A stretch of 64,000 nt of DNA from Marinicella marina (GTDB taxonomy: Bacteria; Pseudomonadota; Gammaproteobacteria; Xanthomonadales; Marinicellaceae). The stretch spans positions 434,001 to 498,000 of the forward strand of contig NZ_JASJNC010000001.1 in assembly GCF_030065545.1 (NCBI RefSeq). The letters run 5' to 3'. A program made the translations under genes and the position numbers. The notes beneath the pieces are model-generated. The model was not told the DNA's origin. It saw only the letters and a list, made by a program, of their open reading frames with translations, and did not search any database. Positions 13,008-26,955 of this stretch are shown piece after piece. Numbering within the stretch: the stretch's first letter is position 1; every line of letters starts with the position of its first letter.

Positions 13008-14231
13008 TTATCCTTCCAATTGCTTGCGGATTTCGGCGCTTTTTTGGTGGTAAACCAGCCCTTCAGCAGCGGCCAGTTTGGCAGAAATATTAGCCAACAC
13101 ACCGCGACCGGTGCCATTGATTTTCTGCGTTGATAAAACTTTCAAGAACTGATGCACGCTCAAACCACCTGAGAACTTGGCAGCACCTGCTGTTGGTAGG
13201 GTGTGGTTGGGGCCGGCACAATAATCACCGAAAGCCACGGCTGAGTTTTCACCAATGAATAACGAGCCGTAGTTGGTGAACAGTGACTGCTTCAAGGATT
13301 CATCACACACCATCAAATGTTCAGGCGCGTAATCGTTGATAAATGCTATGGCCTGATCTTGGTCATCGGCATGAAGCAGCACAATGTTGTCATTATCCAA
13401 TAAAGCTTGGCCATCAGGATGATCAGCAATTAATTGGTTCAAGTCGGTTAACAGCTGTGATGACTCACTGACCACAATGCTGATGGCATTGGCATCGTGC
13501 TCGGCTTGGGCCAAAGCATCAAACATCAACCATTCCGGTTGTTTCACTTGGTTGGCATAAATTAACAACTCACTGGGGCCGGCCAAAGTATCAATCAAAG
13601 TGCGGTGCTGGACTTGGGCCTTGGCCTGATTGACGTAAGCATTACCTGGGCCAACAATCAAATTAACCGGTGCGGTTTCGCTGAAACCATAAGACAGGGC
13701 GCCAATGGCTTGCGCACCACCCAAGTGTAAAAACTGTGTGGCCCCAGCCAAACTGGCAGCGGCCAACAATGCAGGATGGTCGGATGGTGAACAGGCCACC
13801 CGCACTGGACAACCAGCCACTTGTGCTGGCGTTAAAGTCATCAGCGCGGTAGAAATCAGTGGAAATTGGCCGCCAGGAATGTAGGCGCCTATGCGTTCTA
13901 TGGGTTGGTAAACAAAGCCAAAGTCACCCATTTCATCACTGAAGGCATCGCTTTTGAGGGACTTAATTTGAAATTTACAGAATTTTTTGATGCGCATGTG
14001 AGCGCTTTGGATGGCTTCCTTAAGCCCAGTTGCTAATTCATACTCATCGAATGGTTTCAGTTCGATGTAGCTGGCATCTTGTTGGTCAATTTTTTGACTG
14101 ATGGCCTGGACCGCTTTGTCGCCGTGGTCCTTAATTTTACCCAAGATATTGGCAACGGTTGTTTCAACTTTGCTTTGGTCTTTGAAACTGGGCCTGATGT
14201 AGGCCTGAACTGATTGGAATTTATCGCTCAT
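13008..14231 (-). CDS. hisD: Histidinol dehydrogenase
   Basis: The 407-residue enzyme catalyses the last two steps, histidinol to histidine, with NAD and zinc. Family motifs include YIPGGQFPLISTALM, NLIVGPGNAYVNQAK, the zinc-binding ALAQAEHDANA (Gln and His) and FGDYCAGPNHTLPT. It is slightly shorter than the ~434-residue E. coli enzyme. It is the last gene of the his operon and overlaps the hisA/hisIE fusion by 11 bp. In E. coli hisD is second, so the order here is different. Confidence 0.97.
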   Translation of the reverse strand: MSDKFQSVQAYIRPSFKDQSKVETTVANILGKIKDHGDKAVQAISQKIDQQDASYIELKPFDEYELATGLKEAIQSAHMRIKKFCKFQIKSLKSDAFSDEMGDFGFVYQPIERIGAYIPGGQFPLISTALMTLTPAQVAGCPVRVACSPSDHPALLAAASLAGATQFLHLGGAQAIGALSYGFSETAPVNLIVGPGNAYVNQAKAQVQHRTLIDTLAGPSELLIYANQVKQPEWLMFDALAQAEHDANAISIVVSESSQLLTDLNQLIADHPDGQALLDNDNIVLLHADDQDQAIAFINDYAPEHLMVCDESLKQSLFTNYGSLFIGENSAVAFGDYCAGPNHTLPTAGAAKFSGGLSVHQFLKVLSTQKINGTGRGVLANISAKLAAAEGLVYHQKSAEIRKQLEG

Positions 14232-15456
14232 TGTTGCGGCTCCTCAAATCATTGACGATTTCTTGAAAGCTGACCCCTTTGGCTTTGGCCATCACCAAGG
14301 TGAAGAACAACAAATCAGCCGCTTCCCAACGCACGTGGTTGTGGTCGGTGGCCTCAATCAATTCATCGCATTCTTCTTTCAGTTTTTCAATTTGCAGTTC
14401 GTTGCTGGCGAAAAGTTTTTGCGTGAAAGACTGACCTTCATTTGATGCCAAACGTTGTTCGAACACTTCATCGAGGTAATCCAATGAATAGTTTTTACTT
14501 TGGCTGGCAAAACAAGAATAGCGCTCGAAATGACAGGCATTGTTGGTTTGTTCGACCAGAAACAGCAGCGTGTCACCATCGCAATCAACATCAACTTGAA
14601 GCAGTTTTTGGGTGTTGTTGCTGGTTAATCCTTTGGTCCACAGTTCCTCTCTGGATCGTGAGTAATAAGTGCCGGTGCGATTTTCTAAAGCATGTCGCAA
14701 AGACGCTTCAGATGAATAAGCCATCATCAGCACTTTTTGTGTTTTGGCATCTTGTACCACGGTTGGAATCAGGCTCATTTTATTGAAATCGACCAATGAC
14801 ATGAACGCATCGGTCAAGGACATCTTGCCAGAATAAATGGCCATACCAATTTGTGAGTTGGCGCCTTTGGCGTTGATCCATTGTAGGTCTTCATAACTGG
14901 TGATGCCGCCGGCCACTGTGACCGGAATGGGTGAGGCCTTAATCACGTCAGCGATGCGCTCTTGATCAATGCCTTGCATCATGCCTTCTTTTTTCACTTG
15001 GGTGTATAAAAATTCACCACAGTTTTGCGCCCAATCAGCGATGATGTCGAGAACTTTTACGTCTTGGGTTTTTTTCCAACCATGGGTGGTCAGGTAATCA
15101 TCCTTGGCATCAATGGCAAAAATCAATGCCTGTCTGGGTAGCTTTTTGACCCAGTCCTGGCTGGCTGAAGTGCCTAGAATGATTTTGGTGGCACCGGCAG
15201 CCAAGTAGTTTTTGGCGGTTTCTAAATCTCGAATACCACCGCCGACACGACATGGTCTGCGACGCAGTAATTGTTCTATCAAGGCTTGGTTGGAACCTTT
15301 GCCCATGGCTGCATCCAAATCAATGATGGCCACTTCACCGTACATGGCGAACTCATCCAATAAATCGAACACGTCCTCACGTTCGATGATTTTTTTGTCG
15401 CCTTGTTGTAGTTGAACGGCCTTGCCATCCATTAAATCAATACTTGGTATCAGCAT
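14221..15456 (-). CDS. hisA/hisIE: HisA-HisI-HisE three-domain fusion
   Basis: One 411-residue frame joins three enzymes. Residues 1-~222 are HisA (ProFAR isomerase, TIM barrel): PSIDLMDGK with catalytic Asp7, IFAIDAKDD with Asp116, and VGGGIRD. Residues ~226-316 are HisI (PRA-CH): YSRSREELWTKG, the metal site DCDGD (291-295), and Cys308 and Cys315. Residues ~325-411 are HisE (PRA-PH): EECDELIEA and WEAADLLFFTLV. The HisA part is a little shorter than the usual ~245 residues. An internal Met at 227 sits where a separate HisIE would start, but no stop or frameshift separates the parts. It overlaps hisF by 7 bp and hisD by 11 bp. Confidence 0.93.
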   Translation of the reverse strand: MLIPSIDLMDGKAVQLQQGDKKIIEREDVFDLLDEFAMYGEVAIIDLDAAMGKGSNQALIEQLLRRRPCRVGGGIRDLETAKNYLAAGATKIILGTSASQDWVKKLPRQALIFAIDAKDDYLTTHGWKKTQDVKVLDIIADWAQNCGEFLYTQVKKEGMMQGIDQERIADVIKASPIPVTVAGGITSYEDLQWINAKGANSQIGMAIYSGKMSLTDAFMSLVDFNKMSLIPTVVQDAKTQKVLMMAYSSEASLRHALENRTGTYYSRSREELWTKGLTSNNTQKLLQVDVDCDGDTLLFLVEQTNNACHFERYSCFASQSKNYSLDYLDEVFEQRLASNEGQSFTQKLFASNELQIEKLKEECDELIEATDHNHVRWEAADLLFFTLVMAKAKGVSFQEIVNDLRSRNNER

Positions 15457-16244
15457 CCTGTTTTCCTGATTTTTATGTTGTTGTCTATTAAAAATGATTT
15501 GATTTCACCCACCGTGTACTCACCGCGATGGAACAAACCAGCTGCCAGCACGGCATCGGCGCCGGCATGAATCGCATCTAAAAAGTCTTGTGGCCCTTTG
15601 GCACCACCTGATGCAATCACTTGTACTGGGAAGTCAGCGCCGAATTTTGCCAGTAAATCGGTATCAAATCCACTGCCAGTGCCATCTTTGTGCATCGCAG
15701 TTAATAATATTTCGCCGCATCCACGGTCGACCACTTGTTGAATCCATTGGTGGTAATCAACATCGACGCGCCTTGAGCCGCCATGGGTGTAGATGGCCAA
15801 GCTGCCATCGGCTTCGTGATTCACATCCACCGCCACCACAATGCTTTGTGAGCCATATTGTGTTGAGATTTCATTGATCAAAGCAGGCTTTTCCACTGCC
15901 ATGGTGTTCAAAGTGACCTTGTCAGCGCCGGCATGAAAGAATTTGTGCACATCATCCAAGGTTTTGATGCCACCACCGACTGCAAAAGGTATTGACAGCT
16001 CACAGGCCACTTGGCGCACCATTTCCAGTGCCGACTCTTGACCATCGACCGAGGCTTTGATGTCGAGAAATACCAGTTCATCAGCGCCTTGTTGTTCATA
16101 CAGTTTGGCCAGCTCAACCGGGTCGCCCATGTCCAGTAATTGTTTGAAGTTGGTGCCTTTCACAACGCGGCCATAAGCCACATCCAAGCACGGAATGACC
16201 CTGGCGGTTAAGTCAGAGTTTGAGTTTTCATCATCCACATACAT
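15450..16244 (-). CDS. hisF: Imidazole glycerol phosphate synthase, cyclase subunit
   Basis: The 264-residue TIM barrel has the HisF signature [17 protein letters not shown], with the catalytic Asp, and FLDIKAS and AVGGGIK. It receives ammonia from HisH and makes IGP and AICAR. A polar 11-residue extension ([11 protein letters not shown]) precedes the usual start. No internal ATG allows a shorter protein, and the extension is needed for the 14-bp overlap with hisH. The overlap with hisH suggests coupled translation of the two subunits. Confidence 0.97.
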
Positions 16245-16836
16245 GTTTGATCAGCTCCCGGCCAAATTGGCCTGATTTTTCTGGGTGAAATTGAAAGCCA
16301 TATAAATTGCCTCGTTGCACAGCGGCACAAAAGCTGCTGCCGTAATTGACTTTAGCGGTACCAAAGGGACATTCGGTGATGGCATAAGAATTGACAAAAT
16401 AAGCGAACTGATCTTTCATGGTGAGCTTATATGAGTTCAGTTGAGCCCATCCCACCATCGGTGTTTTGGGGTGTTGTAATTTGTGGCAGCGGCCATTGAA
16501 TAAGCCCAGCCCCGTGGCTTCAGGGTCTTCATCGCTGCCTTCAAACAACACCTGCATGCCGACACAAATACCCACCAGGCGTTTGCCGTTGCGCACCCAC
16601 TCCAACAGAAAGTCGTACCACCCCAGGTCTTTGATCTGTTGCATCACGTAAGCAAATCGGCCTTGACCGGGCATCACCAACACATCAAAATCACTGAGCA
16701 TTTTTAAGTCTGGTTTTTGTACCGTTTTCAGTTCACAACCGGCGGCTTCAATGGCCGTTTGTAGGCTGAGTAAATTACCTGAATTCAGATCAATCACCGC
16801 TACTCGGGTTTGGCTTCTGCCAACCAGCGCATTCAT
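16231..16836 (-). CDS. hisH: Imidazole glycerol phosphate synthase, glutaminase subunit
   Basis: The 201-residue class I amidotransferase carries the nucleophile Cys in VGICVGMQVLFEGSDE and the His/Glu pair of the triad in FQFHPEKSGQFG. It supplies ammonia to HisF. A leucine is normal in the nucleophile loop (GICLGMQ) and here it is Val, a mild change. It overlaps hisB by 4 bp upstream and hisF by 14 bp downstream. Confidence 0.96.
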   Translation of the reverse strand: MNALVGRSQTRVAVIDLNSGNLLSLQTAIEAAGCELKTVQKPDLKMLSDFDVLVMPGQGRFAYVMQQIKDLGWYDFLLEWVRNGKRLVGICVGMQVLFEGSDEDPEATGLGLFNGRCHKLQHPKTPMVGWAQLNSYKLTMKDQFAYFVNSYAITECPFGTAKVNYGSSFCAAVQRGNLYGFQFHPEKSGQFGRELIKHVCG

Positions 16837-17405
16837 AACACACCTTTGGTTGAACGTTCACCAGCCACCGGAGACAGTGCTTCTTTCAGCGCATAAGCCA
16901 TGGCTTTGAAAGCACTTTCTATCAAGTGGTGGTTGTTACGGAAATATTGGTTTTTTAAGTGCAGCGTGATTTTGCTGTTGATGCTGAAAGTATAGAAAAA
17001 GTGTTCCCACATTTCGGTGTTGATGCCACCCAGCATCGGTTGTGAGAAGGGCAGGTCGATCACCGCATAAGGGCGACCGCATAAATCAACCGCACATTGG
17101 GTTAAGGCCTCATCCATCGGTAATAAACGCTGACCGTAGCGCTGGGCTGGCATGGCTTGTTGCCATGCTTGGTAAAAAGCCTCACCCAAACAAATCGCCA
17201 CATCCTCAATACCGTGGTGATCATCGACCTCTAAATCGGCTGTGACCTGCAGTTGCATATTCCAGCCCGCATGCGATGCCAATTGATCTAACATGTGATC
17301 AAAAAACGGTAGGCCGGTGTTGATGTTTTTGTCTTTGGCATCACCGTTGATGTCGAGACCGAGCTCAATTTGGGTTTCCTTGGTGGATCTTTTGACTTCT
17401 ATCAT
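16833..17405 (-). CDS. hisB: Imidazoleglycerol-phosphate dehydratase (monofunctional)
   Basis: This 190-residue protein is the dehydratase only. It has FFDHMLDQLASHAGW, DDHHGIEDVAICLGEA and NNHHLIESAFKA, the His/Glu-rich manganese sites of the family. The N-terminal HAD-type histidinol phosphatase that is fused to HisB in enterobacteria is missing. A different HAD domain is instead fused to HisC in the gene just upstream, which overlaps this one by 4 bp. Confidence 0.97.
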   Translation of the reverse strand: MIEVKRSTKETQIELGLDINGDAKDKNINTGLPFFDHMLDQLASHAGWNMQLQVTADLEVDDHHGIEDVAICLGEAFYQAWQQAMPAQRYGQRLLPMDEALTQCAVDLCGRPYAVIDLPFSQPMLGGINTEMWEHFFYTFSINSKITLHLKNQYFRNNHHLIESAFKAMAYALKEALSPVAGERSTKGVL

Positions 17406-19057
17406 AACAATGTCTTCAGTTGGTTGATGTCATCCAGAACCACATCGGCTCCGGCTTGGTATAAATTGTCTTTGGCAGCAGTGGTGGTGGCACCGATTCC
17501 GATACAGATGCAGCCTGCAGCCGTGCCGGCTTGCATGTCATCCACAGTATCGCCACAAAACCATGCGCTATTTGCTGTCAGATTTCGCATCACTTTAAAC
17601 AAGCCTTCAGGGTCTGGTTTTTGTTGCGCCACATCATCGGCACTGACGATGAAGGCAGGCTCAATGTCCAGTTGTTTTACGCCTTGTAGGGCTTCTTGTC
17701 GCGGTCGGCCGGTGACCACCGCAGTTTTGGGATCATCATGGGTGCCGAACAGTTGTGCTTTGAGGGGTTGTTGCAACAGGTCTTGTTCTTGTTCAACCAA
17801 GCCTGGCTTGCCTTCACTGCCCAGGTAGAGGCTTTGAAAGGTGCTGACTACCTGCTCATAAGGTACTTCAGCGCCTTGGTTCTTGATCAATTCAGCAGTC
17901 AAAACCCAATCATTATTGAAGCCACCTTGAGCACGAACGGCCGCAACATCTTGGATGGTGACCATTTGTTCGGTGAGTAATTTAACGCTTTCGATGATAC
18001 ATTGGTCATAGCTTTGTGAGGTATCAATCAGTACCCCATCCATATCAAAGGCTATCAACTCGGGTTTTAAAACTGCCTGTAGTACCGCCATAAATCGGTC
18101 CATGTTCTCAGGAATGGTCAAACGCACCGCATTGGGCAGGCCACCCAGTTCGGTTTTGATCTGGATGTCAGCTTTGGCCATGGCACGGCCGAGCAATGAT
18201 TTTCGTTCCAAAGTGGTTTCAAACAGCAAAAAATTACCGCGACTGGGGCAGGGTTTGAGGCTACAATCAGTTAAAAATGCTGCCACCAGTTCGCGGTTTT
18301 TAGCGATTTGTTGACAGTAGCCTTTGATTTCATCGCGGGCGTTCCAAGCGGCTGTTGCCAGTTGTAGATTGGCTCTGGATACATTGAAAGGCATGGCTAT
18401 TTGTCGCCATTTCTCGACCAATGCCGGCTGACCAAAAATGTAACCAATGCGGGCACCAGCCAAGCCAAAGGCCTTAGAAAAGGTGCGCATGGTGATCAGG
18501 TTGTCATAAGCGGCATAGTTGATGGGTGCTGTCTCGCATGCAAACTCAACATAAGCCTCATCGAGGAATACTTTGGCGTTTTTGGCCGCAGCAGCTTCAA
18601 TCAAGTCGACCAACACCACATCGTCTAAATACTCGCCAGTGGGGTTATTGGGTCGGGTCAGTATCAACCATTGATCGGCTTGTAGGTTGGCCTTAAGTGC
18701 CTCCACATCAATCGATAAGTCGTCCTTTGCTGGGGTGAATGTGGTGTCATTCTGCCACACCATTTGGTTGTGGGTGTATTGGCTGAAGCAGGGTTCAGGC
18801 ACCAACAAGGATTGGTCATTGAGCTTGCAGTGTTTGTACAACAACTCGATGCTCTCATCACCGCCGTTGGTCAGCATCACACTGCCAGCGGCCAAGCTCA
18901 TGTCAGCAGCCATCAGCTGTTCTAACTGACTGCGATCAGGATAGCGCCACAAGGCATCAACATCCAGCTGAAAATCTCGCAACCAGCGTGGTTGAGAGTC
19001 AGCCCGTTCGTTGAAGTCGAGTTTTAATGGCGCTTTGTTTGCGGTCGGCTCGGACAT
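17402..19057 (-). CDS. hisC: HisC aminotransferase fused to a HAD phosphatase
   Basis: Residues 1-~330 are histidinol-phosphate aminotransferase (fold type I PLP enzyme): RPNNPTGEY, DEAYVEF, and the PLP lysine Lys195 in RTFSKAFGLAGARIGY. Residues ~332-551 are a complete subfamily IA HAD hydrolase: motif I FDMDGVLID (Asp338, Asp340), motif II TGRPR (Thr449), motif III Lys480 in QQKPDPEG and motif IV GDTVDD (Asp506, Asp507). Because HisB lacks a phosphatase domain, the HAD part is the best candidate for histidinol-phosphate phosphatase. That role is inferred from the missing step and the fusion. It lies 3 bp after hisG and overlaps hisB by 4 bp. Confidence 0.92.
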   Translation of the reverse strand: MSEPTANKAPLKLDFNERADSQPRWLRDFQLDVDALWRYPDRSQLEQLMAADMSLAAGSVMLTNGGDESIELLYKHCKLNDQSLLVPEPCFSQYTHNQMVWQNDTTFTPAKDDLSIDVEALKANLQADQWLILTRPNNPTGEYLDDVVLVDLIEAAAAKNAKVFLDEAYVEFACETAPINYAAYDNLITMRTFSKAFGLAGARIGYIFGQPALVEKWRQIAMPFNVSRANLQLATAAWNARDEIKGYCQQIAKNRELVAAFLTDCSLKPCPSRGNFLLFETTLERKSLLGRAMAKADIQIKTELGGLPNAVRLTIPENMDRFMAVLQAVLKPELIAFDMDGVLIDTSQSYDQCIIESVKLLTEQMVTIQDVAAVRAQGGFNNDWVLTAELIKNQGAEVPYEQVVSTFQSLYLGSEGKPGLVEQEQDLLQQPLKAQLFGTHDDPKTAVVTGRPRQEALQGVKQLDIEPAFIVSADDVAQQKPDPEGLFKVMRNLTANSAWFCGDTVDDMQAGTAAGCICIGIGATTTAAKDNLYQAGADVVLDDINQLKTLL

Positions 19058-19060
19058 TTT

Positions 19061-19909
19061 TTATACCACTTTACGAATTGGCAATTCAAGGATGTCGGTG
19101 GCACCGGCTTGTTTCAGTTTTGGAATCAAGTCTCTGGTGGCATTTTTCATGATGGCTGCGCGCACCGAATAGGCATCTGAATTGAACAGCTGACTGACGG
19201 TGGGTGAACGCATCGCTGGCAGCAGAGCAACGATTTTTTCGATGTTCTCACTCTGACAGTTCATTTCCAGTAACACCCTTTGGCGGGCATTCATGACGCC
19301 ATTAATCAATAACAGCATGTCATCAATGATGGCTTTTTTCTCAGGATCTTGCAGCGCTTGTTTGTTAGCAAAAAACTGCGTGGCACTCTCATAAACCACA
19401 TCACAAATCTTCAAGCGGTTGGCTTTGATGGTGGTGCCGGTGCTGGTGTTATCAATGATCATGTCGGCATCTTCAGGAGGGAACACTTCGGTGGCGCCGT
19501 AAGAGCGAATCAACTTTGCATCAAAGCCGTTCTTTTCCAAAAACTTTTCAGCCAGATTCATGTACTCAGTGGCGACAATGATTTTGCGTTGTTTCAGCGC
19601 TACATAATCCCAGTCTTCAGGAATACAAGCCACAATCTGTACCGGATTGAAGCCCAAAGGTTTGATGATTTCGACATCAGCGCCTTGCTCTGCAATCCAA
19701 TCGAGACCGGCGAAACCAATGTCATGCTGTCCCAGTTCAACCATGGATGGGATGTTTTGACCTTTCAGTAATTTGATTTCAAAACGCTCGTCGTTGCAGC
19801 CTGGGCGGTAGTTGCGGTCGCTGCCCATGACGTTGATGCCAATGTCGGCCAGAAGTTGGTCGATTGCGATTTGTAGCTTGCCTTTGGGTATGGCCATTTT
19901 AATTTTCAT
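19061..19909 (-). CDS. hisG: ATP phosphoribosyltransferase, long form
   Basis: The first enzyme of histidine synthesis, 282 residues from the ATG at 19909 (MKIKMAIPKGKLQ). The frame is open to 20011, but that part lies inside the attenuator. Family features are NYRPGC, DIGFAGLDWIAE, DNTSTGTTIKAN and the C-terminal regulatory domain ending ATDILELPIRKVV. It is therefore the self-standing long form that is usually feedback-inhibited by histidine and needs no HisZ. A weak GAGA lies before the start. It is the first structural gene after the tandem leader. Confidence 0.97.
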   Translation of the reverse strand: MKIKMAIPKGKLQIAIDQLLADIGINVMGSDRNYRPGCNDERFEIKLLKGQNIPSMVELGQHDIGFAGLDWIAEQGADVEIIKPLGFNPVQIVACIPEDWDYVALKQRKIIVATEYMNLAEKFLEKNGFDAKLIRSYGATEVFPPEDADMIIDNTSTGTTIKANRLKICDVVYESATQFFANKQALQDPEKKAIIDDMLLLINGVMNARQRVLLEMNCQSENIEKIVALLPAMRSPTVSQLFNSDAYSVRAAIMKNATRDLIPKLKQAGATDILELPIRKVV

Positions 19910-19950
19910 TGTGTTCGTCTCAGTCTTAAGTTTGTCGGCTTTAAATTTAG

Positions 19951-19982
19951 CCAAAAAAAACCCCGTATTTTCGACGGGGCTT
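19951..19982 (-). terminator. Histidine attenuator terminator 2
   Basis: On the minus strand a stem CCCCGT/ACGGGG with loop CGAAAAT is followed by eight T residues (19953-19960), 20 nt after the second leader peptide stop and 43 nt before hisG. A competing antiterminator can form: GACGGTGCT (20007-20015), just after the His codons, pairs with AGCCCCGTC of the 5' arm with one mismatch. Confidence 0.85.
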
Positions 19983-20001
19983 CGTGAATTATATGCGAAT
20001 C

Positions 20002-20076
20002 TCAGCAGCACCGTCTATGTATGTCGAAATGGTGATGGTGGTTGTTTCCAATGGTTTTGGTGTTGTTATTAATCAT
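20002..20076 (-). CDS. hisL: Second His-rich leader peptide
   Basis: The 24-codon frame ends HHHHFDIHRRCC-stop, with four consecutive His codons at 20029-20040 and a fifth four codons later. It is followed directly by a terminator that has an overlapping antiterminator arm, the arrangement of a classical histidine attenuator. No Shine-Dalgarno sequence is visible before its ATG (the region is AAC/CAA repeats), so its translation rate is uncertain. An in-frame extension to 20193 with no ATG is rejected. Confidence 0.75.
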   Translation of the reverse strand: MINNNTKTIGNNHHHHFDIHRRCC

Positions 20077-20114
20077 TGTTGTTATTGGTGTTTGTTGTTG
20101 GTTATTTTCAAAGC

Positions 20115-20148
20115 AAAAAAAAAGCCCCGTTTCGATGACGGGGCTTTT
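20115..20148 (-). terminator. Histidine attenuator terminator 1
   Basis: A perfect 11-bp stem, AAAAGCCCCGT (20148-20138) with ACGGGGCTTTT (20130-20120), has loop CATCGAA and runs into nine T residues on the minus strand. It follows the first leader peptide by 25 nt and precedes the second. ACGGGG at 20187-20182, inside the first leader peptide, can pair with its CCCCGT arm as an antiterminator. The hairpin could also act weakly on the plus strand. Confidence 0.85.
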
Positions 20149-20173
20149 ATAAGAATTCTTTTTCAAATTGGCA

Positions 20174-20233
20174 CTAAGCCACCCCGTTGGCAATTAACGT
20201 ATGGTGATGGATGTGTGCGAATCTTGTTATCAT
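20174..20233 (-). CDS. hisL: First His-rich leader peptide, probably leaderless
   Basis: A 19-codon frame encodes MITRFAHIHHHTLIANGVA, with His codons at positions 7, 9, 10 and 11. The sequence TRF-H-HHH resembles the E. coli HisL start. The stop codon lies 25 nt before terminator 1, and the segment after the His codons is complementary to that terminator's 5' arm. The promoter predicted just upstream would place the transcript start at about 20233-20235, so the AUG is at or next to the 5' end of the RNA. An in-frame ATG three codons upstream (20242) overlaps the -10 box and is less likely. Confidence 0.75.
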   Translation of the reverse strand: MITRFAHIHHHTLIANGVA

Positions 20234-20240
20234 GCTTCGC

Positions 20241-20269
20241 ATATTAAAGAAGCGCAATTTTTTTGTCAA
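20241..20269 (-). promoter_or_regulatory. Sigma-70 promoter of the his operon
   Basis: A perfect -35, TTGACA (20264-20269), is 17 bp from TAATAT (20241-20246) on the minus strand, just before the first leader peptide. It is the best promoter match I found in the window. Confidence 0.7.
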
Positions 20270-20284
20270 CACCTAAGTTGGCGT

Positions 20285-20313
20285 TTTAACCAAAAATCAA
20301 TAACGTGTATAAT
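20285..20313 (+). promoter_or_regulatory. Promoter of the FG-GAP gene
   Basis: A perfect -10, TATAAT (20308-20313), has a weak TTTAAC -35 at 17-bp spacing, 44 bp before the start codon. It is divergent from the his promoter. Confidence 0.5.
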
Positions 20314-20356
20314 CCGAATACCCAGATATACTTCAGCAAGGAGGCATTTATCAGTT

Positions 20357-22810
20357 ATGAAAAATTTTAGGAATACAATATACAATCTAAGTTTAGTTAT
20401 GCTGTTTTGGAGTTCGACAGCCTTTGGGTTTGACCAAACTCAAGCATGTTGTTCATTGGAAACAGCATCAATCGATAACACATTAATAAGTAAACTAGAA
20501 CCTGCAGTTGAAGGAAATGGCGGAGAATCTACTCGTTTTGCTGAACATGTGGTCGTTGGTGATCAGCACTTATTCGTCGGTGCCCGTGGCATGGCAGGTA
20601 CAGGCGTTGTCAATGTTTATCAAAATGATGGAGTAACTTGGCAACTGAGCCAAACGTTGCAGCCAGAGGATTTATATTCTCATGATGAATTTGGTGCATC
20701 TATCAGTTTATCTGGTGACTTTTTGATGGTTGGAACAGGCCAAAACAACCGAAACTTTTTTGACTCGGCTGGTGTTTACGTCTATCGATATGATGGCAAT
20801 GAATGGGTTGAGTTTCAGAAGATAGTCAACCCGAATGATGAGTTGGAGGGAATTTTTGGCTATCCAGTGGTGGCCAATGATTCCATGGTGTTGGTTGGTT
20901 TCAGAGGCACGTCTTTTGGCGTAGCCAGCAAGGTTTTTGTCTATCAGTTCGACGGTGACTCATGGTCATTGTCACAAACTCTGGAAGACGAACATGGCGA
21001 ACCCAGTTCAGCATTCAGTTACAGCATGGCTCTGAATAACGAAAGGGCTGTGATTGGCGCACCAGTGAATGGGTCGCAGGCAGACAGTAAAGCAGTCATT
21101 TACAACATCTTGGATAATAACTTGGTGTTTGATGAGGTCATTGCTTCACCAACGGCAGAAGCAAATACACCATTCCCAACCACCATTACGTTGGCAGCGG
21201 ATGAAATATTTTTAGGTGCATGGTCTGATAATGTTGCAGGCTCTTTCTCTGGGTCAGTTTATGTTTATACCAAGACCAATGAACAATGGAACCAAACACA
21301 AAGATTACTTCCAACTGGTCCGGGTGCCAGGTCCGGTGATTATTTTGGTCGCTCACTCAGTTATCTGAATGGTGAATTGGTGGTGGGAGCCAGTGGTGAT
21401 GGAGATGGTGTCGTTTATCTCTTTCAAAAACAGAACGAAAATTGGGTTGAACGACGCAGAATTACGCAACAAGATTTAGGCCAAGTAGCAGATGGTGTTT
21501 CTGATTTTGGCCGGTCAGTCGGAGTTTTAAATGACAACCTGGTGGTTGGAGCGGTTGGCGGATTCGACAATCCAGGTTCTGTTCACACCTTCAGCCGACC
21601 TGAAAATGGAGATTGGTCTGTGACATTCACAGCATATGCACCAGTAGGAGCGGCAAATCATAATTTTGGCAATGCCGTAAGCATGCATGGCAACCACCTC
21701 ATCATAGGCGCAATGCGGGACAAAGAAATTTATGAAGAAGGCGGGTCAGCCAGTATTTTTCAATGGCTAGAAAACAGTTGGCAATTGATGCAAATATTAA
21801 CCCCCAAGGATTTACAAACCAATTCAAGAGTGGGCTCAGCAGTCGCTATTCATGAGGATACTGCTGTGGTGGTTGCACATGACGGCTATTCACCCTCTGC
21901 AGACACCAGCGTGTTTTATGTTTACAAGCTTGAAAAAGACACTTGGATTGAACAGCAAAAGGTGGTCATTCCGCAAAGTCAAGATTCTGAGTATTACTAT
22001 GCATCGGTCTCCTTGTTTGATGATGTTATCGCCATAGGCGCCATTGGTTTCGAAAACCAACCTGGCAACATTGGTGCAGTATTTGTATTCAAAGAAGTGG
22101 CGGGCAGTTGGGTCCAGCAACAACAACTGATACCTGAAACCACCTCGAATTATTATCGCTTTGGTAAGTCAGTCAGTGTACAGGGCGACAGGCTTGCTGT
22201 TGGCAGTCAGACTGATGTTTCAGGTCAAGGAGCCGTATATATGTTTGAGTACAATATGGACAGCAGTTCATGGGTTCAAACCGACAAACTGCTGGCCAGT
22301 GATGGCGCAAGTGCTGATGAATTTGGCTATTCAGTCAATTTATCAGGAGATGACCTCATAATCGGCGCACCTGGAGATAATTTGTTTTATGAAATCTACC
22401 GCAAAGGTTCAGCCTATTTTTTTCATAACAATCAAGGCCTGTGGACAGAATCACTGAAAGTTGAGTATGACGTCGCTGTACCAATGGCATATACTTTTGG
22501 TTCATCTGTCAGCCTGGACAATGACACAGCGGTCATTGGCACAGGGTATTTTGATAGAAATTCGAGTCTACCTTATTACGATATGGGCGAGGTTTTTGTC
22601 TATAAAAAGACCAATCAACTATGGCAAAGAGCCATGATTTTGGATAACCCGAACCCACAAGAGCTGGGTGGCTTTGGTCTGGCCGTTGATATATCCAATG
22701 ATAAGGTGGTTGTGGGGTCACGTTTTGATGATGCGCGAGGTACCGATTCAGGTGCTGCTTATGTTTTCGACATACCGCCTGACGCGATCTTTTATGATGG
22801 ATTTGATTGA
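20357..22810 (+). CDS. Secreted FG-GAP (integrin-alpha-like) repeat protein
   Basis: The start at 20357 has an AAGGAGG box 12 nt upstream and gives 817 residues with a signal peptide (MKNFRNTIYNLSLVMLFWSSTAFG). The rest is a chain of about 12-14 repeats of the type DxFGxSVSLxGDxLVVGAxxD followed by GSVYVF, which fold as a beta-propeller and often bind calcium. The far C-terminus is DAIFYDGFD-stop, a tail shared with the choice-of-anchor I protein at 50.4 kb. Likely exported or surface bound. The ligand is unknown. The in-frame stretch 20201-20356 before the start is promoter and leader, not coding. Confidence 0.8.
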   Translation: MKNFRNTIYNLSLVMLFWSSTAFGFDQTQACCSLETASIDNTLISKLEPAVEGNGGESTRFAEHVVVGDQHLFVGARGMAGTGVVNVYQNDGVTWQLSQTLQPEDLYSHDEFGASISLSGDFLMVGTGQNNRNFFDSAGVYVYRYDGNEWVEFQKIVNPNDELEGIFGYPVVANDSMVLVGFRGTSFGVASKVFVYQFDGDSWSLSQTLEDEHGEPSSAFSYSMALNNERAVIGAPVNGSQADSKAVIYNILDNNLVFDEVIASPTAEANTPFPTTITLAADEIFLGAWSDNVAGSFSGSVYVYTKTNEQWNQTQRLLPTGPGARSGDYFGRSLSYLNGELVVGASGDGDGVVYLFQKQNENWVERRRITQQDLGQVADGVSDFGRSVGVLNDNLVVGAVGGFDNPGSVHTFSRPENGDWSVTFTAYAPVGAANHNFGNAVSMHGNHLIIGAMRDKEIYEEGGSASIFQWLENSWQLMQILTPKDLQTNSRVGSAVAIHEDTAVVVAHDGYSPSADTSVFYVYKLEKDTWIEQQKVVIPQSQDSEYYYASVSLFDDVIAIGAIGFENQPGNIGAVFVFKEVAGSWVQQQQLIPETTSNYYRFGKSVSVQGDRLAVGSQTDVSGQGAVYMFEYNMDSSSWVQTDKLLASDGASADEFGYSVNLSGDDLIIGAPGDNLFYEIYRKGSAYFFHNNQGLWTESLKVEYDVAVPMAYTFGSSVSLDNDTAVIGTGYFDRNSSLPYYDMGEVFVYKKTNQLWQRAMILDNPNPQELGGFGLAVDISNDKVVVGSRFDDARGTDSGAAYVFDIPPDAIFYDGFD

Positions 22811-26849: not shown

Positions 26850-26955
26850 AAACTCGGTCTAACAACGGCAAAGTGTTGAAAATTTGGTGCTTTCCCTACT
26901 TTAAAAAAAAGACAACTCTAAATTAAGCTTGAAACAATGATGTAAAATTTCATAA

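Follow-up and report, generated by a model that had tools for sequence, protein, structure and literature searches.

The question raised by this locus is whether the leader of a histidine operon can hold not one but two complete attenuators for the same amino acid. Textbook bacteria possess a single histidine checkpoint, while the Marinicella leader apparently possesses two, and the doubled form is present in two lineages of relatives. The window, that is the whole stretch of 64,000 nucleotides that was analysed, stems from a Marinicella genome (G000), and the nearest named hisG loci are those of M. sediminis, M. litoralis, M. meishanensis and of Marinicella MAGs. On the minus strand the elements follow each other in the order promoter, peptide 1, terminator 1, peptide 2, terminator 2 and hisG:

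20241 to 20269, minus strand: sigma-70-like promoter, TTGACA and TAATAT with a spacing of 17 bp, 10 of 12 consensus matches
20234 to 20240, minus strand: 7-nt gap between the -10 box and the ATG of peptide 1, predicted transcription start at or adjoining the ATG (leaderless)
20174 to 20233, minus strand: module 1 leader peptide, MITRFAHIHHHTLIANGVA, stop included, 19 codons with four His
20182 to 20187, minus strand: core of the putative module 1 antiterminator, ACGGGG, over codons 16-18 of peptide 1, duplex with its own arm −12.7 kcal/mol
20148 to 20120, minus strand: terminator 1 (20115 to 20148 with its T tract), −16.4 kcal/mol
20002 to 20076, minus strand: module 2 leader peptide, MINNNTKTIGNNHHHHFDIHRRCC, stop included, 24 codons with HHHH and one further His
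20007 to 20015, minus strand: core of the putative module 2 antiterminator, GACGGTGCT, over the final codons of peptide 2, duplex with its own arm −9.2 kcal/mol
19983 to 19957, minus strand: terminator 2 (19953 to 19983 with its T tract), −12.0 kcal/mol
19061 to 19909, minus strand: hisG, ATP phosphoribosyltransferase, first gene after the leader (TIGR00070, 153.9 bits, above its cut-off)
13026 to 19057, minus strand: the remaining his genes, namely a hisC-HAD fusion, hisB, hisH, hisF, a hisA-hisIE fusion and hisD
13026 to 14183, minus strand (447026 to 448183 in the source genome): hisD, the last gene of the run (PF00815)

Most of this anatomy had been described in an earlier note on the same DNA, and the promoter, the two peptides with their His codons and the complementarity of ACGGGG with CCCCGT in module 1 and of GACGGTGCT with AGCCCCGTC (one mismatch) in module 2 are indeed present in the sequence. 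The same applies to terminator 2 with its 6-bp stem and eight T, a stem to which A:U and G:U pairs can be added. For terminator 1, an 11-bp stem and nine T had been claimed; both counts can be found, but four bases were counted in both. Since AAAA:TTTT pairs take up four of the nine T, terminator 1 can be read in two ways, with a G+C-rich stem of 7 bp and nine T or with a stem of 11 bp and five free T. Each module contains, ahead of a biosynthetic gene, a leader reading frame in which codons of the amino acid made by the operon are frequent, and in each a predicted intrinsic terminator lies between the reading frame and that gene.

Some further features of the region may be mentioned. On the minus strand, the hisC gene carries a fused HAD-type hydrolase domain (17402 to 19057), which possibly acts as histidinol-phosphatase, and hisA is fused to hisIE (14221 to 15456). 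A long divergent reading frame on the plus strand (20201 to 22810, protein end ...IFYDGFD) has a listed start that overlaps the his leader; judged from the sequence, an ATG at 20357 behind GGAGG is the more likely start.

An arrangement of this kind is not readily produced by chance. When modules were defined as a reading frame of 8 to 45 codons with at least three His in eight, followed by a hairpin of −10 kcal/mol or lower in front of a T tract, the 336-nt leader yielded two of them, and none of 1000 dinucleotide shuffles of these 336 nt contained even a single His reading frame with a terminator. Applied to both strands of the whole 64 kb, the rule returned the two leader modules and one other match, at 26901 on the minus strand, where a short His-containing reading frame is followed by a hairpin and a T tract; it looks like a chance occurrence. 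As a positive control, E. coli hisL was recovered as one reading frame with one terminator at a slightly looser energy limit, in agreement with the single module that the earlier note had ascribed to the E. coli his leader. At gathering thresholds, nothing in the window matched an Rfam family. When 19890 to 20300 was scanned permissively, both modules resembled Trp_leader (27.1 and 18.9 bits against a cut-off of 41) and, below threshold as well, Thr_leader, while His_leader (RF00514) was absent among the 37 matches listed for this interval up to an E value of 5. The leaders assembled in this work supply many attenuator examples, and the Rfam His_leader model finds none in the window.

We propose, with a probability of about 80%, that the leader contains two complete ribosome-mediated transcription attenuators, both sensing charged tRNA-His and placed in series on one transcript before hisG. 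This proposal is built, by sequence and comparison, on the two putative modules and their order, their presence in many relatives, the complementarity of each module to its own terminator arm and one conserved promoter; from these we infer actual termination at both terminators, kinetic antitermination, independence of the two modules and a benefit of the doubling. While a ribosome is slowed at the His codons, the segment that spans the final codons of the peptide would stay uncovered. This segment would pair with the terminator's 5' arm before the hairpin has been completed, so that RNA polymerase would continue. A ribosome that has reached the stop codon would instead cover the antiterminator segment and the terminator would form. 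As both terminators would have to be passed, read-through would equal the product of two probabilities, and the predicted effect is a reduced basal expression under ample histidine supply together with a steeper increase under shortage.

The switch was modelled with the leading edge of the ribosome 15 nt past the first base of the P site, and the free RNA was folded at a stage when the terminator's 3' arm is still to be transcribed. If the A site held the first His codon, upstream pairing of the terminator's 5' arm had a mean probability above 0.5 in all 66 modules of the double leaders; if it held the stop codon, this value was below 0.5 in all 66. For the window the respective figures are 0.63 and 0.03 in module 1 and 0.76 and 0.32 in module 2, such that an exclusive antiterminator that depends on the ribosome position is predicted for both modules before the 3' arm is made. 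Shuffling of the segment between the His codons and the terminator lowered the mean value for the stalled ribosome from 0.755 to 0.431, and in all 90 modules, including those of single leaders, the observed value was higher than the mean of the shuffles, although for each window module three of 40 shuffles still reached the observed value. In the absence of a ribosome the upstream pairing of the 5' arm was intermediate (group means 0.22-0.58). With the full hairpin present, equilibrium favours the terminator despite a stalled ribosome (group means 0.83-0.92; 0.94 and 0.89 in the window). Antitermination would therefore have to be kinetic and take place during transcription, and it is generally held that attenuators switch during transcription.

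The match between each antiterminator and its own terminator was examined next. In 13 representative double leaders, the mean duplex energy of module 2 segments was −14.42 kcal/mol with their own arms and −11.51 kcal/mol with permuted arms, the corresponding values for module 1 being −13.23 and −12.15 kcal/mol; in neither case did any of 20,000 permutations reach the observed value, a figure that overstates the number of independent cases because the rows are related. The clearest case is module 2 of G015, in which all three segments have changed together, with CCCTGTTG in the 5' arm, CAACAG in the antiterminator and CAACAGGG in the 3' arm; in module 2 of Kangiella GAGCGACGGTGG is set against CCCGTTGCTC. 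Compared with plain shuffles, 13 of 14 Marinicellaceae module-1 segments and 19 of 19 Kangiella module-2 segments reached p<0.05, but only six of 14 Marinicellaceae module-2 segments and only seven of 19 Kangiella module-1 segments did so. When the two arms of one genome are compared, the segment of module 2 pairs better with its own arm than with the module 1 arm in nine of 14 Marinicellaceae and in 19 of 19 Kangiella doubles, and the module-2 segment of the window pairs better with the arm of G047 (−11.1 kcal/mol) than with its own (−9.2 kcal/mol).

These data bear on the possibility that only one module regulates, the other being a leftover copy or a terminator that lets a fixed share of polymerases through and just lowers the basal level. 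It is in line with this idea that G016 and ten other Marinicellaceae leaders manage with one module and that terminator 2 of the window is the weaker one (−12.0 compared with −16.4 kcal/mol) and has a mismatched antiterminator. On the other hand, His codons, terminator and upstream pairing are kept in both modules by 33 of 33 intact doubles, the matching of segment and own arm holds for both modules, and diverged module-2 arms (G015, G042, the G001 group and Kangiella) are accompanied by a matching antiterminator. We consider regulation by one module unlikely and favour two working attenuators in series, a reading that had been advanced in the earlier note and that is supported by the anatomy, the folds, the own-arm complementarity and the 33 intact doubles.

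These 33 intact double leaders come from two families and all contain a second His reading frame. The 26 hisG leaders of the Marinicellaceae comprise 14 doubles, one double cut by a contig end and 11 singles. Within Marinicella, 17 of 18 genomes contain hisG, with twelve double and five single leaders; the nine leaders of the sister genus g3 comprise two complete doubles, six singles and that of G041, whose contig starts part-way through the 3' arm of a first terminator, after which a complete second module follows. In the Kangiellaceae hisG was found in 36 of 40 genomes, and the 31 leaders scanned comprise 19 doubles and 12 singles. Three terminators, the second one in G001 and in G011 and the first one in G047, had escaped an initial terminator rule and were recovered by an energy-based one. 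Genomes without a hisG match at the cut-off are G010, G018, G020, G022, G024, G043 and G044, of which G024 has a distant match. G010 belongs to the genus of the window and is 97% complete; its his operon may have been lost or replaced.

Relatives lacking one module, which the earlier note had named as evidence against its proposal, thus exist in 11 of 26 Marinicellaceae and 12 of 31 Kangiellaceae leaders. In these single leaders no second module was found within 480 nt of hisG, and module 2 of G016 was removed by a single deletion; as judged from the sequences, single leaders are read as loss of a whole unit and not as decay of a non-functional module. Some of them contain stray His reading frames or terminators farther upstream. 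In a wider survey, none of 40 stretches upstream of hisG from the class (one of only 262 bases) carried a His reading frame with a terminator. No module was seen in the ten loci from the order (L127-L136), and three of 29 loci from the class (L137-L165) had one (L150, L151 and L152); in this survey the HisG matches are distant, some gene starts are uncertain and the genomes represent part of the class. In five genomes, no leader reading frame with a terminator was present directly upstream of trpE (five loci), acetolactate synthase (three) or leuA (five), which is weak evidence, as other genes may lead these operons.

A tree of 71 HisG rows (G023, with hisG split over contigs, was left out) places the 19 Kangiellaceae doubles, among them named Kangiella records, in one clade without exception (98/91), the Pleionea/Aliikangiella-type rows, all single, in another (94/81) and the 25 Marinicellaceae rows in a third (99/100), in which singles occupy five separate places. 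At least six changes between single and double are needed on this tree. The tree alone cannot separate gain from loss, but the singles are nested among doubles and G016 is sister to the window, and we therefore favour loss within the Marinicellaceae. A single origin of the tandem is suggested by the tree and may apply, but a comparison of the modules by position between Marinicellaceae and Kangiella gave no decisive preference, with the concordant assignment better in 163 of 266 pairs. HisG of Marinicella is 55-65% identical to that of the Kangiellaceae and their kin and about 25-33% identical to matches elsewhere in the order, a contrast by which the his operon of Marinicella looks horizontally acquired.

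In G016, the nearest relative of the window with a HisG that is 95% identical, the alignment of the single-module leader with that of the window spans module 1 with its terminator and resumes immediately upstream of hisG; one clean deletion has taken module 2 and terminator 2. The two alignment pieces overlap by 35 G016 bases, and these are terminator sequence, which fits a deletion of module 2 by recombination between two similar terminators. Such an easy route of loss, together with the frequent change indicated by singles in five Marinicellaceae places on the tree, speaks for the rival view that the doubling is a transient outcome of duplication and has no lasting effect. The nineteen Kangiella rows, which form one clade and are double without exception, argue against this, as does the strong difference in peptides and arms between modules 1 and 2 of one genome, seen both in the window and in Kangiella, and a merely transient duplication appears quite improbable to us. 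The pair formed by the window and G016, a natural double and a natural single, offers a direct test of whether serial attenuators for the same signal sharpen and deepen the response.

The serial arrangement requires that both modules reside on one RNA. A promoter with at least nine of 12 consensus positions precedes module 1 in 24 of 24 scorable Marinicellaceae and in 24 of 31 Kangiellaceae leaders. Upstream of module 2, this score is reached in two of 13 Marinicellaceae, at differing positions, and in none of 19 Kangiella stretches scored, and a promoter between the modules was consequently rejected as a conserved feature. In the window, the consensus scan found no qualifying hexamer pair upstream of module 2; a weak promoter-like match, which speaks against the serial reading, lies inside this module (20017 to 19988, minus strand). 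As no promoter for module 2 is conserved, the modules should act one after the other on the same transcript and multiply their read-through, and for two independent steps in series logarithmic sensitivities add, which is algebra and not a measurement.

On such a transcript the modules could also be coupled as a relay, in that antitermination in module 1 frees the 3' arm of terminator 1 for pairing with the 5' arm of terminator 2, by which polymerase would be helped past the latter. In the Marinicellaceae doubles this cross pairing (mean −14.7 kcal/mol) comes close to the own pairing of terminator 2 (−16.5 kcal/mol). It may simply follow from shared terminator sequence, and in Kangiella it is weak (−10.7 compared with −18.1 kcal/mol for own pairing), which indicates that a relay is not a kept feature of the tandem. 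We regard it as very improbable and retain two independent attenuators.

The start of the transcript deserves attention as well. Of 55 leaders examined for the distance between promoter and first start codon, 48 had a promoter scoring at least 9 and seven, all from Kangiellaceae, had none; G041 and G009 were excluded because the contig start is too near. The first in-frame ATG or GTG follows the -10 box after 6-7 nt in 24 of 24 Marinicellaceae and after 6-8 nt in 24 of 24 Kangiellaceae leaders. The gaps are of 20 and 18 different sequences, respectively, so it is the spacing and not the letters that is kept. Transcription is thus predicted to start at or next to the ATG and the first peptide to be leaderless, which provides a predicted leaderless leader peptide in Gammaproteobacteria. 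This bears the possibility that the two modules answer to different translation states, module 1 as a leaderless and module 2 as an internal start, and that the pair also reports initiation capacity. The kept gap of 6-8 nt at module 1 would suit this view, as would module 2 of the window, whose start is internal to the RNA and lacks an evident Shine-Dalgarno sequence. However, the short gap is common to single and double leaders and occurs in 17 of 17 scorable singles, so leaderlessness is not tied to the tandem. Furthermore, a Shine-Dalgarno-like 4-mer precedes only 12 of 41 long ATG reading frames of the window (8.7% in random 15-mers), and with such scarcity its absence before module 2 says little. 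A sensing of translation states therefore seems improbable in comparison with two attenuators that both respond to charged tRNA-His.

Taken together, we tentatively put forward a combined scenario, which we hold to be possible though short of an even chance. Homotypic serial ribosome-mediated attenuation would here be described from nature for the first time: one amino acid would be read by two leader-peptide attenuators, of which the first is leaderless, and together they would gate the his operon in a pseudo-cooperative manner. This layout would predate the split between the his operons of Kangiella and Marinicella, would have reached the Marinicellaceae along with a his operon that differs from those elsewhere in the order, and would since have been reduced to a single module on several occasions, one or more of them through recombination between the two terminators. 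A search of the open literature, which did not extend to a 2004 survey of proteobacterial attenuators that may hold an earlier mention, yielded no serial ribosome-mediated attenuators for the same amino acid with their own intrinsic terminators in one leader.

The closest functional counterpart is the his leader of E. coli and Salmonella (RF00514), which likewise combines a leader peptide with His codons, alternative pairing and an intrinsic terminator before hisG. In Salmonella, the peptide is described as having 16 codons, seven of them for His, with the terminator as the default state (PMC4046918), and the his attenuator has been modelled as a single, sensitive module (PMC1183508). The Marinicella leader differs from hisL by two modules instead of one, by shorter His runs in the window and by the lack of a match of its modules to Rfam His_leader. 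hisL forms a set of hairpins A-F, while the window modules were modelled with a single antiterminator segment each, and the beginning of hisL in E. coli lies at some distance downstream of the promoter while the first peptide of the window is predicted to be leaderless. Leader peptides of attenuators at whose ATG transcription starts have been described for trpL of Sinorhizobium meliloti and for leuL, trpL and ilvL of Streptomyces lividans (PMC7298713, PMC8079986). There the start was measured and here it is predicted; those attenuators serve other amino acids and, from what these accounts convey, apparently consist of single modules. In the rimP leader of some Gammaproteobacteria, a second terminator is located in tandem upstream, with a potential antiterminator (PMC2965389), and the relevant section of that paper describes this leader without amino-acid leader peptides, unlike the window modules.

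Tandems of two complete switches for the same signal are represented by homotypic or 'pseudo-cooperative' riboswitches, for which a steeper, more 'digital' curve is described (PMC9481103). This offers a parallel for a sharper response from the his tandem, with the difference that those switches, as portrayed there, are ligand-binding aptamers whereas the window modules would rely on translating ribosomes. Each of the two his modules is classical when taken by itself. What appears to be new, as far as the literature covered shows, is the presence of two for the same amino acid in one leader, and the nearest known system is the mgtCBR leader of Salmonella, in which two short reading frames, mgtM and mgtP, each have their own switch and act additively and independently (PMC3641672). 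By that description, mgtCBR responds to two signals, ATP and proline, through stem-loops unlike intrinsic terminators, while the Marinicella leader appears to read one amino acid twice, each time in front of an intrinsic terminator.
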